Origin: Candidatus Gastranaerophilales bacterium
Lineage (GTDB): Bacteria; Cyanobacteriota; Vampirovibrionia; Gastranaerophilales; Gastranaerophilaceae
Length of the DNA: 46,408 bases
Reading direction: 5' to 3'
Assembly: GCA_947589115.1 (NCBI GenBank)
Contig: CANPZP010000006.1
Location: forward strand, 1-46,408
The position numbers were made by a program, and so were the translations under genes. Shown here one piece after another: positions 33,108 to 41,804 of the stretch (its first letter is position 1; every line of letters starts with the position of its first letter). The notes beneath the pieces are model-generated. The model saw only the letters and a list, made by a program, of their open reading frames with translations. It ran no database searches and was not told the origin of the DNA.

Positions 33108-34346
33108 CTAAACTTTAATAATTAAAGCATTATTAACATCATCAGATTTAACATTATCATTATAATTAATTTCATGATTTTTAATGCACATGGAAGAAGA
33201 GCTGCCGCCGTCAAGATTTATAGCTTCTATACATTCTAAATCCCGCATTATTTGTGCAAGTTCATCTAAACTTACACCTAAGTTTTTGCCTTCTCTTCCT
33301 TCAACGGTAACAAGTTTTAATACACCGTCATTTGTATATCCAATGGCGGTTCTGGGATTTTTTGCGGACAAAGAATAAAGTTTTTCTTCTTTAGCATCAT
33401 TATATACTTCACCGTTTTTAACCAAATGAGGGCCGGCACTTATTATATTTTCCATATTCTCCCATTTTCCAGGAAGAGAATAGCTTAAATCAACTCTGTC
33501 CCCGATACTAAATTTATCCGTATAACTTACCGGAGCTGTAATTACATAACCATTATCAGGAATTATCGATTCATCATTTGTTATATTTTTAATTATATTA
33601 TTTTCAATAACGATATATTTAAACTTATCACCTTTTAATTTGGGTTTAGTATTTTTCCAGTTAGAATCGTACAATATTACATCAGAATCCGAAATTCTCG
33701 GCTGATTTACGGTTGTAATTTCTATTTCTTCACCGGCTGATTTTAATTTACCTATAAAGTCAGTTCTATCTATTAAATAGCCGTCATCATTTATACCAAA
33801 TGCGCATCTGTTATACACAGGGCCTGTTAATATTTCATTATTTATTTTTAATAATCCTAACGGGGTGCCTGTTTTTTGATTAAAAAACGAACCGTTTATT
33901 CCTGCAATTCCTTTTTCCCGCATCATAATATTTTGCACTGTATCTCTTGAATGAATATAATCTGATGCAATTACAGGCTTTATAGAAATATCAGGATTTT
34001 GTTTTCTGTCAATACTTATAACATTAATATTATTTTCAGATGACTTGTTAATACAAGAATATTTTTTATATTCAATTCCTTTATCAACCTGATATTCATT
34101 ACGACATATATATTCACGATTACCGTCTTGAATAAATTTGCCTTTTAATTCAGAAATTTTATAAAGAAAATTATTAAAATATTGGCTTATTAATGTATGA
34201 ATACGAGGTTTTAAATTATCTGCGTTTCTGCAAAAAACATCATTATCACTTTGATTTATTCCGAATGCAGGGGAAAAACTATTTTTTGCTCCGTAATAAT
34301 TTTTTAAACAGTTATTATTTTTTACAGAAATTGAATTAATAATCAT
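33108..34346 (-). CDS. Phosphodiester glycosidase-like (NAGPA/DUF2233) protein
   Basis: 412 aa. The C-terminal two thirds carry the DUF2233 features: GINGSFFNQKTGTPLG, ISAGPHLVKNGEVY, PRTAIGYTNDGVLKLVTVEGR, and ECIEAINLDGGSSSSM, the last being the conserved catalytic-site stretch. Related enzymes cleave sugar phosphodiesters or peptidoglycan-linked sugars. The N-terminus lacks a Sec signal but holds the lineage-type motif NSFSPAFG at about residues 22-29. Start set at 34346 (ATG after AAAGGTG); the upstream GTG at 34352 overlaps the Shine-Dalgarno. The substrate is unknown. Confidence 0.85.
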   Translation of the reverse strand: MIINSISVKNNNCLKNYYGAKNSFSPAFGINQSDNDVFCRNADNLKPRIHTLISQYFNNFLYKISELKGKFIQDGNREYICRNEYQVDKGIEYKKYSCINKSSENNINVISIDRKQNPDISIKPVIASDYIHSRDTVQNIMMREKGIAGINGSFFNQKTGTPLGLLKINNEILTGPVYNRCAFGINDDGYLIDRTDFIGKLKSAGEEIEITTVNQPRISDSDVILYDSNWKNTKPKLKGDKFKYIVIENNIIKNITNDESIIPDNGYVITAPVSYTDKFSIGDRVDLSYSLPGKWENMENIISAGPHLVKNGEVYNDAKEEKLYSLSAKNPRTAIGYTNDGVLKLVTVEGREGKNLGVSLDELAQIMRDLECIEAINLDGGSSSSMCIKNHEINYNDNVKSDDVNNALIIKV

Positions 34347-34415
34347 AATCACCTTTTCATCATTTAAAACAAAATAAAAAATTAATTGTCTAAATGTAAA
34401 TTTTTAAATAACAAA

Positions 34416-35100: not shown

Positions 35101-35354
35101 TCTTTTTCCTCTTAATTTTAATTTTTTACATACTTATACTATAAAATTACTTAGACAGCTGCAATAAACTTAATTAATCTTAATAAATAAAATAATTACA
35201 GCAAATTATTTTATTTTCATATTTAATAAAAATATTAAAAATTTTTAATTTTTAATACATTTTTATAAAATTAGTATTATAGTATGTATACGTAAGATTA
35301 TATAAAATTGCATCCCGATCAAAATTTATGATTAAAGAAAGTAGAGGTCAAATA

Positions 35355-36305
35355 ATGAGTATTCAAAAAGTTGATTCAATAGGAGTAAAAAGTCCTGCTG
35401 TTTCTGCAAGTATTGCAAAAAAACAAAATGTAAATTCTGAAAAACAATTTAACTTTAAAGAATCACCGATTTTAAATGTTCTGGCATCATACAATAAAGC
35501 AAACGTAAGTTTCGGGTCATTAAAAGACGAACAATCTCAGGCAATAAAGACGGCATATACCTTAGCAGGTAATTCGGAACAAAACATTGAATCAGCCGAA
35601 GAATTATACAATGAAGCAAATAAATTATATAATTCTGCAAGCACAATATTAGAGGGCACTAAATTAAGAGTTAATTCAATAATAGAATCAATGGTATCAA
35701 ATGGTTTAGATGCAGATGATATTACCGACGGTTGTACAACATGCAGACTGGATGATACAACTGAAATTTTGGCAGAATACAAAGTTATAGATAACTCATC
35801 TTTAAAAATAGAAAAAATAACAATAAACAGTTTAAGTGAAGAAGATGAAGAACCGATGGTTGTAGAAATAAATGACTCCGGAGATATTGAAAAAATAAAT
35901 ACGTCGGTTAAAGGGTCTATTCCAAAAGATTATCATGCTGAAAAAGTATACACATACAAAGACGGAAATGTTGAAAATGTTATTAGCGATTTAAGTGTTA
36001 CAAAAGACAGAAAATGGGCCAAAAATATAGTTCAATATGATAAAAAAGGCAATTTAACATCATATATGAATAATTATGCCGAAAATAAATCGCTGTCTAA
36101 ATACTCAGTCGGTACAAGATTTGATTATAAAGATAACGAATTAAAAGAAATCTATACGAATTTCAGATATAATCCAACGGAAGAAGTACCTTATAATGCA
36201 GCAAAATCCTACATTTTTGAAAATGAAACTCTGTCTGAAATTCTGGCAGGAATAAAACTTTACCCTGAATATCCCAATAACTTATCCCCTGAAATAAATG
36301 TATAA
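35355..36305 (+). CDS. Lineage-type protein with SFG motif, unknown function
   Basis: 316 aa, not recognised. The start at 35355 has AGAGGT ten bases upstream; an in-frame ATG at 35328 has none. The first 55 residues are polar and end with the motif NVSFGS (50-55). A helical segment follows (about 60-105), then a beta-rich half with repeated 'YKDGNVENV', 'YDKKGNLTSYMNNY' and 'YKDNELKEIYTNF' strands, similar to antiparallel Y-D repeat folds (MORN/RHS-like in appearance only). Two Cys lie close together (TDGCTTCRL, about 113-121). No signal peptide. Confidence 0.72.
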   Translation: MSIQKVDSIGVKSPAVSASIAKKQNVNSEKQFNFKESPILNVLASYNKANVSFGSLKDEQSQAIKTAYTLAGNSEQNIESAEELYNEANKLYNSASTILEGTKLRVNSIIESMVSNGLDADDITDGCTTCRLDDTTEILAEYKVIDNSSLKIEKITINSLSEEDEEPMVVEINDSGDIEKINTSVKGSIPKDYHAEKVYTYKDGNVENVISDLSVTKDRKWAKNIVQYDKKGNLTSYMNNYAENKSLSKYSVGTRFDYKDNELKEIYTNFRYNPTEEVPYNAAKSYIFENETLSEILAGIKLYPEYPNNLSPEINV

Positions 36306-36337: not shown

Positions 36338-36377
36338 AAAATGTTATATGGAAATTAAATATTTTCATATAACATTT
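36338..36377. terminator. Bidirectional terminator overlapping a gene end
   Basis: AAAATGTTATATG and CATATAACATTTT pair around a 15-nt AT-rich loop, with T-runs on both strands. The right arm is the last coding part (MLYENI) of the nucleotidyltransferase-kinase gene, so coding sequence doubles as terminator. Confidence 0.78.
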
Positions 36378-37926
36378 TTTTACCGAGAAAATATAATAAA
36401 TGACAATAAGGATAATGATGTAAAGCTGCAATGTTTAAATATATCAATGCACAAATTTGTTTTACTTTTTTTACATCAAAATTATTTTCACTAAGCCATT
36501 TATAATAATATTCTTCGCACTGAATCAAAATAGGTTTTCTATCAAAACTATAATTAACAATGTTATTATTTATATCAACTTTAAATTTATTCTGAGCTAT
36601 TAACTCGTGACATATTATCAGGCCATGTAATAATTTACCCAAATCATAATATATGTCACCATAATCAAGATGTCCTCCGAAATTTTGACGCCAATCTAAC
36701 AGAGTAAATTTATCATTCTTTTTATCATATAGAATATTTTCAAAATGAAAATCACCATGAAAACGACCGATTAAACCGTCATTAATATTGTTCCAATCAA
36801 CTTTTTCTATAATTTCAGACAGTTTTGGTATACTTACACCGTTTATTACCGTTTCAGTGTCACTCATTTTAAATGTATCATAATATAAATTAATTCTTTT
36901 AAGAGTTTTTTTATAATAAAATTCCTCACAAATTTTATTAAATTCAGGATACTTTTTATATTCACCCAAATTAAAGAATTTTAAAGAATATGTAAGTAAT
37001 TTTTTAAATATTTCAACATCATCAATTTTAGATAAAACAACACCATCTTGCTTATTATAGCAATACATATTTTCCGTAAAACTTATTATGTCAGGAACAT
37101 AGCCTTTAAGGAAGTTAACTCTTGCTACCCTGTCTTTAATAAAATTTTTATCATCACAGTATTTAATAACTTTATTATTGACAAACCATATTGTTTCATT
37201 AGGTTTTGGCAATATATTAACATCTTCTTCAGAGGGATAAGACTTTTCAGTTAACCCAAGCTCTATAAGATTACCCGTATCATACCAAGTAGCTTTTTGT
37301 GCATACAAATTACCTTCATCTGCAAAAATTGAAAGCGGGTAACTTTCACCGATAATTACGGCATCTTTACCTCCATTGTGCATTTCTTGCCAAAATCTTT
37401 TGTAATCATTAATACAAGCAAGTCCGATATAAGGTTTTGCGCTGTTTGAAGCCATTTGCTTTTCATAAAATTTTACAGCCTTATTATTTTTTACTTCAAT
37501 AGTTCTGTATTGATTAATATCATCACGCTGACCATAAAATACAATATTTTTGTCCGGATAGGGTATGGGTTCTTTTATTAAAGTATCGCAAGAACAAAAA
37601 ACAAATGGCTCATTTAAATATTTTTCGGAAGTTAATATTGATAATCCTAATCCTGAGCCTTCACCTTCGTATTTTTCAACAGTAGAATAATAAAATACTC
37701 TGTCAGGATGCGCTAAAGATAAATATTGCTTTACTAAATCCCCTTTATATCCAAGAACAATTACAAACTCGCAGTTATTAGGGAACATCTCTATTATTCT
37801 TGAAATAACCGGTTTATTTCCTATACCGACTAATGATTTGTTTAAATATTTTGTTAAATCTTTTAATCTTCCGCCTATTCCGGCTACAGGTATTAAAACC
37901 TTATATTTATTTTCTGTTATAATCAT
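36355..37926 (-). CDS. Bifunctional sugar nucleotidyltransferase - APH-type kinase
   Basis: 523 aa in two domains. Residues 1 to about 235 are an NTP transferase: PVAGIGGRLKDLTKYLNKSL is the nucleotide-binding loop variant, with a catalytic Asp in FCSCDT and a late Asp in WYDTGNL. Residues from about 245 on are an aminoglycoside/choline-phosphotransferase-like kinase: FHGDFHFENILYD is the catalytic loop (Asp and Asn) and LLDWRQNFGG the metal site, followed by DIYYDLGKLLHG. The protein could phosphorylate a sugar or polyol and then attach a nucleotide. The ATG is inside the end of the cupin gene (20-bp overlap). It ends the cassette. Confidence 0.85.
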   Translation of the reverse strand: MIITENKYKVLIPVAGIGGRLKDLTKYLNKSLVGIGNKPVISRIIEMFPNNCEFVIVLGYKGDLVKQYLSLAHPDRVFYYSTVEKYEGEGSGLGLSILTSEKYLNEPFVFCSCDTLIKEPIPYPDKNIVFYGQRDDINQYRTIEVKNNKAVKFYEKQMASNSAKPYIGLACINDYKRFWQEMHNGGKDAVIIGESYPLSIFADEGNLYAQKATWYDTGNLIELGLTEKSYPSEEDVNILPKPNETIWFVNNKVIKYCDDKNFIKDRVARVNFLKGYVPDIISFTENMYCYNKQDGVVLSKIDDVEIFKKLLTYSLKFFNLGEYKKYPEFNKICEEFYYKKTLKRINLYYDTFKMSDTETVINGVSIPKLSEIIEKVDWNNINDGLIGRFHGDFHFENILYDKKNDKFTLLDWRQNFGGHLDYGDIYYDLGKLLHGLIICHELIAQNKFKVDINNNIVNYSFDRKPILIQCEEYYYKWLSENNFDVKKVKQICALIYLNIAALHHYPYCHLLYFLGKKMLYENI

Positions 37927-38251
37927 CTGATATTCTCACTGTATCATCTGTATCAGGAGTTGAAGCTTCTAAATACACACAATCAGTTACTCCTTCCATT
38001 CTGTGAATTATATGCGGTTCTATTGTTATTACATCTGAAACTTTATATATTTTTGAGGTCAGATTATTTTTATCTGTTCCTTGAATTATTCTTAATTCTC
38101 CTGATATTACATATATTGTTTCACATTTATTATTATGATATTGAAGCGAACATCTGTTATCTTTTTTCATAGTAAGACGTTTTAACATATATTTATCATT
38201 TAATTCAAGTATTTCTTCACATCCCCAAGGCTTATCAATTAACGTGTACAT
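37907..38251 (-). CDS. Cupin-fold sugar isomerase-like protein
   Basis: 114 aa single cupin domain. It matches the mannose-6-phosphate isomerase type II / AlgA C-terminal domain pattern: KPWGCEEIL at the start, LQYHNNKCETIYVISGELRI with metal ligands His, Gln/Glu, and EPHIIHRMEGVTDCVYLEASTP. It may isomerise or epimerise the sugar phosphate made by the neighbouring aldolase. GAGGAACTAAT precedes the ATG. It overlaps the aldolase gene by 13 bp and the nucleotidyltransferase-kinase gene by 20 bp. Confidence 0.83.
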   Translation of the reverse strand: MYTLIDKPWGCEEILELNDKYMLKRLTMKKDNRCSLQYHNNKCETIYVISGELRIIQGTDKNNLTSKIYKVSDVITIEPHIIHRMEGVTDCVYLEASTPDTDDTVRISDDYNRK

Positions 38252-39424
38252 ATTAGTTCCTCTTCTAATGTATTATTAACTCTAAACAGTTTTAAATATG
38301 TTAAAATACAATCTTTTACTTTATTTTTTAAATAATCATCAAGATTAACATTTTTAATCTGTTTTTGAATTTTATCTTTAAGTATCAAAAACTCATCTGT
38401 TGAAAAAACATAATGACCCGCAATTATTGCCTTATCCCTATTTGTTAATGTTGAATTGGGCATAAGCCACTTTTCCCACTTATTTGAGTTATATGAAATA
38501 TTTAAAAATTCATTTATAAATTGGGGAAGATTATATTTTTCTAAGAAATTAATTAATGACTTAGTTTCACAAACTCCAAATTCAGGAGCAACATTGGCTG
38601 CACTAATCTTATATTTTGGAAATAATCTTAATGCTTCATGTTTTAAATAATCAGTATTATGTACTTTCATGAAGAAATTATGATTTAAACACTCTTGAGC
38701 CAATTCACTTACATATGAAAATACTTTTTCATTATTATTCTGATTTAGTATTCCAATATTTTGCATTTCAATAACTTTTGTTCCGACTTGAGTAACAACA
38801 AATAAAGGAAGTTTCCATTTATTGCTTTTACAAGCATTCAAAACTTGATTTAAAAGTTTAACATATTCTGTTTTGTCATTGAAATATGTCATCTGTTCTT
38901 CCGTTCCTATCTCATATTCAATGACTTTTTTAGTTTTAAAAGCATAATCTTCACAAGCCGAATATAATTCCAATAACCTGTCTAAAATTTCATCACCGGA
39001 AACTTGTCCGTATATGTTAATACTCGGATCAAGATGTAAAATATCAAAACCGGAATCAATATCAATATAAAAAGAATCAAGAGCTGATTTCATAGCATCT
39101 TTTAAATTATATTTTTTCATGACTTCAACGGTATTTTGCCACGGCCCGCCATGGTCACGAGCTATAATAACATTATTCTTTTTTGATTTTGATTGAACAT
39201 ATTTAACAAATTCTTCGGTTGACCAATTATTAACATAGCCTCTTTTAATTTGCTTACAATCAACCTGCCTTCTACTGGCTATTAACATTACGGGGAAATC
39301 AGTTTCATCTGCTATTTCTATAGCTGCATTAACAGTATTTGTACTCATTGGCCCTATTCCAAGAGCCGTATTCCCCCCCCCCCGTTGCAGATATGTACTT
39401 TTTTAATCTGATGATTTTTTCCAT
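38239..39424 (-). CDS. GatZ/KbaZ-like aldolase, frame interrupted at a poly-G tract
   Basis: Related to the class II tagatose-bisphosphate aldolase subunit family (PF08013). Correspondences to GatZ include ARDHGGPW (GGDHLGPN), DILHLDPSI (KIHLDAS), EYEIGTE (YVIGTE) and KVHNTDYLK (EAHSTDYQT). Its natural start is ATG 39424, one base after the kdsC-like stop, with AAAGGA upstream. From there the frame reads MEKIIRLKKYISATGGG and, because of 11 G (39383-39373), runs out of frame to TAA at 39331-39329 after 31 codons. With 10 G it would continue ...GGGNTALGIGPMSTNT into the long open frame (about 394 aa total), matching the GatZ N-terminus. An internal ATG at 39348 could give a shortened product. 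Probably phase-variable and OFF here. Confidence 0.82.
39373..39383 (-). repeat. Homopolymeric tract of 11 G (phase-variation site candidate)
   Basis: A run of 11 C on the plus strand (G on the coding strand) is very unusual in this AT-rich DNA; no other G/C run of similar length is in the window. It lies 14 codons into the aldolase gene. Lengths of 10 or 13 keep the frame; 11 and 12 break it. An assembly or sequencing error of one base cannot be excluded. Confidence 0.85.
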
Positions 39425-39425
39425 A

Positions 39426-39920
39426 TTATAAATCCTTTAAAGGGTTATATGCCACAAAAAATTTACTCATAATATGCAAACAAGCTTCCGCAACGGCACG
39501 ATTCCCGCCTACTCTTTTTGTAACATATTTTGCGGTTCTTTTTGCAAATTCATCAGAATCGGAAGTTGCAATAGAATATCCCACTTGTTTCATAACGATA
39601 GAATCAAAAATACCATCACCCATATATATAACATCTTGAGGGTTATACTTTGTTCTAATCCATTCAATACGTTTATCGGTACTAACTAAATCAATTTGAA
39701 ATTTCATATCTTTGATTCGTCTTTTTGTAATATTAAACCCTCTCTTATCCCCTGAAACAAACCTTATTTCAATAAATGGGGCTAATAATTTTAAAGCATC
39801 ATTATCATCAGGCCCAAATTTCTTCAGCACCTTTCCTTCTTCCGAATAATAAAAACCGCCATCGGTTAAAACGCCGTCAACATCTAATATAAATACTTTA
39901 GGATTAAATAAATTTGCCAT
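39426..39920 (-). CDS. KdsC-like HAD phosphatase
   Basis: 164 aa HAD-superfamily phosphatase of the KdsC (KDO-8-phosphate phosphatase) type, with no cap domain. Motif I is FILDVDGVLTDGGFYY (Asp nucleophile and acid), motif II FVSGDKRG, motif III Lys in the RRIKD region, motif IV MGDGIFDSIVMKQVG. KdsC removes the phosphate from a 2-keto sugar acid phosphate; here the partner aldolase suggests another keto-sugar phosphate. There is no good Shine-Dalgarno. It is the first gene of the overlapping cassette and ends one base before the aldolase ATG. Confidence 0.88.
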   Translation of the reverse strand: MANLFNPKVFILDVDGVLTDGGFYYSEEGKVLKKFGPDDNDALKLLAPFIEIRFVSGDKRGFNITKRRIKDMKFQIDLVSTDKRIEWIRTKYNPQDVIYMGDGIFDSIVMKQVGYSIATSDSDEFAKRTAKYVTKRVGGNRAVAEACLHIMSKFFVAYNPLKDL

Positions 39921-41429: not shown

Positions 41430-41804
41430 TTACCGCTGGCTAAATATATCGTATCCTATTGCACGATAAAGAGTTTTTTTAACTTCTTTTGCCCAGTTTA
41501 TACCTTCAATGGTTTTACCCTCCATTGAATTAACGGTTTTTATTATATTTTCTTTCACTTGCGGATTGGATTGTATAAATTCATAAAGAGGAACAGAGCT
41601 TCTTTTTGAGTTCCAGCTTCTTTTGACAACAAGGTAGTTTGAATATTCATTTTTTCCGCCTAAAGATAGCGGAATAATATGCTCAATTGTTTTAGTATTG
41701 CGAGGACTAAAATCTTCACCCGAATATGTACATTTAGTAAATTGCTTTTTAAATGTTTTTTTTGATGAAAAATTAATTTGATTTGAAATTAACTGAATTT
41801 TCAT
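41430..41804 (-). CDS. HNH endonuclease-like protein with N-terminal NFSS motif
   Basis: 124 aa. The HNH (ββα-metal) core is CTYSGEDFSPRNTKTIEHIIPLSLGGKNEYSNYLVVKRSWNSKR (about 26-70): EH at the first catalytic position, then N and the SWN-x-K-R end. Only one Cys is at the usual zinc site, so no zinc ribbon is likely. The N-terminus has INFSSKK (10-16), similar to the NFSG motif of other small proteins here. No restriction or phage genes are adjacent, so its target is unclear. Confidence 0.8.
   Translation of the reverse strand: MKIQLISNQINFSSKKTFKKQFTKCTYSGEDFSPRNTKTIEHIIPLSLGGKNEYSNYLVVKRSWNSKRSSVPLYEFIQSNPQVKENIIKTVNSMEGKTIEGINWAKEVKKTLYRAIGYDIFSQR

Follow-up and report, generated by a model that had tools for sequence, protein, structure and literature searches.

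A candidate phase-variation switch in an aldolase gene of a Candidatus Gastranaerophilales bacterium and the poly-G runs of its family

The stretch of DNA analyzed here (the window; 46,408 nucleotides (nt), 30% GC, contig CANPZP010000006.1 of a Candidatus Gastranaerophilales bacterium) contains, on its minus strand, a gene for a GatZ/KbaZ-like aldolase that carries a run of 11 G residues close to its start, a candidate switch of slipped-strand phase variation. The run reads as C11 on the plus strand (39373-39383), and is located 14 codons past the start codon, ATG 39424. The window contains no further G/C run with a length of at least 7. A first-order Markov model predicts ~0.0006 runs of at least 11 per 46 kb, and ~0.13 runs of at least 10 per genome. 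A G/C homopolymer within an open reading frame (ORF) or promoter, of a length far above chance, is one hallmark of slipped-strand phase variation, and the run at 39373-39383 has it. The elements directly involved are as follows.

39433..39438, minus strand: AAAGGA, Shine-Dalgarno-like, 8 nt ahead of ATG 39424 (direct reading)
39373..39383, minus strand: G11 run, candidate slippage switch (direct count)
39329..39424, minus strand: truncated product of the 11-G version, 31 codons, stop codon 39331-39329 (translation)
38239..39372, minus strand: GatZ/KbaZ-like class II aldolase-family protein, main frame of 377 codons, off-frame from ATG 39424 at 11 G (PF08013, E 1.6e-8; model matches 3txv and 2fiq)

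The arrangement described in the initial annotation, a G11 tract 14 codons after an ATG that is preceded by a Shine-Dalgarno sequence and follows the stop of the upstream gene by one base, was found in the sequence, and translation gave the two outcomes it had claimed. With 11 G, the frame opened by ATG 39424 yields MEKIIRLKKYISATGGGEYGSWNRANEYKYC and terminates after 31 codons; a run of 10 G would instead connect it to NTALGIGPMSTNT... for a total of 394 codons. A change of one G thus toggles the aldolase frame relative to its start codon, another property expected of a slipped-strand switch. Beyond the run, the 377-codon main frame has no internal stops. The run length of 11, and hence the assignment of the gene to the OFF state, comes from one assembly, and the exact length is uncertain.

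The aldolase product matched PF08013 above the Pfam cut-off (34.1 bits, gathering cut-off 26.7), while its score against the agaZ/gatZ equivalog TIGR02810 was far below threshold (31.5 bits, cut-off 568.8); because the equivalog cut-off was not reached, we do not name the product tagatose-bisphosphate aldolase subunit GatZ itself. The fold predicted from a four-sequence alignment (mean predicted local distance difference test score, pLDDT, 76.6) was nearest to 3txv and 2fiq, both deposited under the name of putative tagatose 6-phosphate kinases. The run sits just ahead of the first barrel strand, which corresponds to model residues 3-6.

The initial annotation had noted that such runs are otherwise absent from the window, which is correct; in the rest of the genome, however, they are common, with ~24 distinct runs of at least 10 compared to the ~0.13 predicted. 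The fetched stretches of this genome contained 33 runs of at least 9, with lengths of 9-12. In these 171 kb, there were 39 G/C runs of length 5, none of 6, 7, or 8, nine of 9, twenty of 10, three of 11, and one of 12, with length-9 runs undercounted because the stretches were picked around runs of at least 10. Nearly the same gap at 6-8 and peak at 9-10 were observed in two further genomes of the genus (G025 and G003). Of 149 runs scored for frame status in four genomes and at one locus of a fifth (G022), 69 left their genes in frame, 41 put them out of frame, and 39 lay outside long ORFs; in the window's genome the corresponding numbers were 13, 12, and 8, i.e., about half of the intragenic runs are off-frame.

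The genes that carry runs belong to particular classes. Nine of 99 sampled proteins matched the prepilin N-methylation domain (N_methyl), and the next families were GT2, radical SAM, epimerase, TupA ATP-grasp, FkbM methyltransferase, and nucleotidyltransferases. In a background set of 75 proteins, drawn from other genomes of the genus and from the window, housekeeping families led, and prepilin N_methyl, GT2, epimerase, FkbM, TupA ATP-grasp, and nucleotidyltransferase were not among the 25 commonest families, the only ones listed, so that the contrast with the run-bearing genes is qualitative. Several prepilin genes have their run in the leader, ahead of the FTLAEVL site, and a frame-restoring length would therefore leave the mature pilin as it is. 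At three positions in the window's genome (L006 1758, L006 8435, and L016 232), a G9 run was seen in a short upstream reading frame, ~150 nt ahead of prepilin genes. A run similar to these was seen in a sister genome (G032) in the first codons of ~250-codon genes, some in frame and some out.

The check proposed at the outset, a comparison of run lengths in related genomes, gave a positive answer at other loci of the genus. In three close species (G014, G016, and G027), 5 of 11 matched orthologous runs differed by one G, while 5,961 columns of flanking alignment contained 17 gap openings, i.e., the runs change ~17-fold faster per base. Among close relatives, run length is thus more variable than the flanking sequence, as expected of slipped-strand mispairing. 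An orthologous run in another family has 11 G and is out of frame in one genome (G045), and has 10 G and is in frame in another (G040). In G014, 7 of the 33 runs are no more than ~70 nt away from the start of a contig, against ~0.3 expected, a pattern that fits unresolved assembly bubbles. Only 11 pairs could be matched out of 113 runs in the three species, which suggests fast gain and loss; the sampling is incomplete.

A census of 212 genomes of the order showed that one family (f1) is rich in runs across many genera, with up to 176 runs of at least 10 per genome. Genera g34 and g35, like some others, are almost devoid of runs, and 0-3 are present in families f2-f7. In a MutS phylogeny of the genus, run-rich and run-poor genomes group together (4 changes versus 11.5 in shuffles). 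Loss of mismatch repair was considered as a cause and rejected: MutS_I is present in 54 and MutL_C in 52 of 58 genomes, and both are present in the window's genome. MutL_C was not matched in G032, which has more runs than any other genus-mate, a single case on which nothing is built.

Some of the runs may act as promoter spacers. Where loci were selected solely by their runs, TATAAT follows 21 of 148 runs at a distance of no more than 20 nt (4.2 expected), and in 14 of these 21 the distance is exactly 9 nt. This is the only unbiased figure, since the fixed 9-nt gap at loci L086-L120 arises from selection. The corresponding cassette can be written TTGCNNN-G(8-11)-TAAAAGTGG-TATAAT, in which the run separates TATAAT from a −35-like box; this box is assigned tentatively, because the TTGCNN-to-TATAAT spacing of 18-21 nt exceeds the usual 17. 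A scan of GTDB genomes returned 35 stretches with the cassette; apart from a small contig in a Bacilli bin, all belong to Candidatus Gastranaerophilales metagenome-assembled genomes of one rabbit project. No match was found in the viral contigs scanned, and the cassette is not present at the window's own locus. G-rich versions of the cassette with interruptions (e.g., GGGGGAGGG), which may be locked switches, were seen at L111 near 6470 and 530, and at L107 near 4384. An artefact of the single rabbit (Lapin) project was considered as the source and rejected, since the census, which does not list projects, contains run-rich genomes in many genera of the family.

At the aldolase locus, the gene belongs to a block of four, the other members of which are listed below.

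39426..39920, minus strand: KdsC/YrbI-like HAD phosphatase, first gene of the conserved four-gene block; the G022 copy has its own G11 run
37907..38251, minus strand: cupin (mannose-6-phosphate isomerase C-terminal type), overlapping the end of the aldolase gene
36355..37926, minus strand: sugar-nucleotidyltransferase/APH-kinase fusion, overlapping the cupin gene

The block is kept in G025 and G004, and is split over two contigs in G022. Judging by its gene families, it looks like a pathway to an activated, probably surface-displayed, sugar. In G025 (66% identity) and G004 (53%), a single Gly codon stands at the position of the run, and the aldolase frame is intact. The G022 aldolase also lacks the run and is in frame; there, the G11 run in the preceding KdsC-like gene shifts the last part of that gene off-frame (our ON/OFF rule scores it as in frame, since 149 of 159 codons stay open). 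Comparison of these sequences suggests that the aldolase run was gained recently, at a Gly codon; across two species, this operon has acquired runs at two different places. Relatives that are run-free and intact had been named beforehand as a finding that would count against phase variation at this locus. Literally, three orthologues are of this kind; we do not take them as a refutation, because the run looks like a recent Gly-codon gain in a run-rich family, and because of the G11 run in the same operon of G022. Elsewhere in the window (33108-34352, 35328-36305, and 41430-41804), otherwise unrelated proteins seem, by eye, to have a common N-terminal FSPAFG / VSFG / NFSSK-like motif.

A different picture was observed in G088, a genome of another genus of the same family (g18; loci L289-L325). 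It has ~179 poly-G runs, 29 of 30 sampled being exactly G10, with a common downstream context, C(A/G)...TTTAAGCTCC-like. The 100 runs listed all keep to one strand per contig over hundreds of kb, irrespective of the direction of the host gene, so that the run of a prepilin leader reads as G10 or as C10 according to gene orientation. The polarity switches only once, on contig C3 between 123 and 163 kb. No origin or terminus genes were found there among the proteins scanned, and run polarity does not track GC skew. Runs in the window's own genus are variable in length, and without such strand polarity.

We consider it very probable that the aldolase G11 run is a slipped-strand contingency switch of the kind known from Campylobacter and Neisseria, and part of a poly-G repertoire of the whole family. 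The genome-wide set of runs, their peak at 9-10, their preference for glycan and prepilin genes, the many off-frame genes, and the length differences between relatives support the phase variation proposed in the initial annotation. According to this model, DNA polymerase would gain or lose one G, moving ATG 39424 into or out of the aldolase frame, and a cell population would thereby be a mixture of ON and OFF cells. At 11 G (OFF), the aldolase would be cut at 31 residues, ahead of the first barrel strand, and translation of the cupin and nucleotidyltransferase may also drop, because their genes and the aldolase gene overlap. The sequences themselves show that the runs exist, which frames they leave open, how they are distributed over the clade, which gene classes carry them, and that their lengths differ from species to species; slippage in living cells, a rate of switching, and an effect on the cell surface are what we infer. 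The family-wide repertoire would extend to glycan enzymes, prepilin leaders, and promoter spacers.

The closest known parallel is the Campylobacter phasome, which likewise consists mostly of poly-G/C runs with a peak at 9-10 (9 = 53%, 10 = 26%), located mainly in ORFs of a ~30% GC genome, with some homologues carrying disrupted runs (PMC6321876). Campylobacter is an unrelated lineage, and has 5-81 phase-variable genes per strain (PMC6321876), compared to the ~176 runs of at least 10 per genome reached in the Gastranaerophilales family. Gastranaerophilales further differ from Campylobacter in the prominence of prepilin leaders and of a repeated promoter cassette. The promoter runs resemble those of Neisseria porA/fetA, where a homopolymer lies between −35 and −10 and its length would change transcription (PMC5320596), but in Gastranaerophilales one cassette, a putative promoter with an extended −10, is repeated before many genes in several species.

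Several observations weigh against phase variation at the aldolase run. All length differences seen in the assemblies lie between species, not within one population. The run-free, in-frame orthologues imply that the aldolase run may itself be young. MutS and MutL occur in almost all of the genomes, so loss of mismatch repair does not explain slippage. The near-fixed G10 length and the strand polarity of G088 are not predicted by simple slippage. These features of G088 raise the alternative that the runs in part of the family (g18, G088) are a strand-polarised chromosomal element of near-fixed length, and that a directional, perhaps replication-coupled, process makes the poly-G of the family, phase variation being one use of it; we regard this as unlikely.

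It is decidedly unlikely that the run is a sequencing or assembly error, with a true length of 10 and an aldolase that is always in frame and never switches. One-base errors are frequent in homopolymers of at least 10, consensus assembly masks mixtures, and on one contig (C60 of G018, L171) runs of G19, G32, and G21 stand beside N and are probably a sequencing artefact. Yet runs are nearly absent in other families of the order, and abundant in many genera of family f1. In one sample (Lapin-032, assigned by record title), a Bacilli bin has 5 runs, 2 of them on the contig with the Gastranaerophilales cassette, while the Gastranaerophilales bins have ~30-65, which makes a per-run sequencing artefact unlikely. 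The runs also favor certain gene classes and a fixed promoter position. None of this confirms that the length given for the window is exact. RNA polymerase can slip on long homopolymers, so the aldolase could be made whatever the run length, as it could by ribosomal frameshifting at the run or from an internal start at ATG 39348, which is in frame and has a weak Shine-Dalgarno sequence (AGGG) just upstream. This is very improbable: a product begun at ATG 39348 would lack model residues 1-8 and with them the first barrel strand, which is part of a block that is nearly invariant among orthologues, and the clade-wide set of runs would be left without explanation. Most doubtful of all is that an ordinary frameshift inactivated the aldolase and the gene is now decaying. 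Its frame is indeed broken in the window's assembly and intact in relatives, but the remaining 377 codons have no further stop or frameshift and keep 53-66% identity and the conserved blocks. The run is the only place where the gene is damaged, and the genus contains dozens of further genes disrupted by runs of the same type.

In literature searches that left subscription journals mostly outside their coverage, we found no report of phase variation in Gastranaerophilales and, for Melainabacteria, only flagellin diversity; publications on Cyanobacteria and homopolymeric tracts concerned, by title and abstract, other subjects. The runs point to an extensive, apparently undescribed on/off system for genes of the cell surface in this lineage. 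Gastranaerophilales, which are related to cyanobacteria, are common in the gut and mostly uncultured. If they do possess a large set of switches that turn surface sugars and pilins on and off at random, each strain would be a mix of surface types, which would affect immune recognition, phage sensitivity, and strain tracking.
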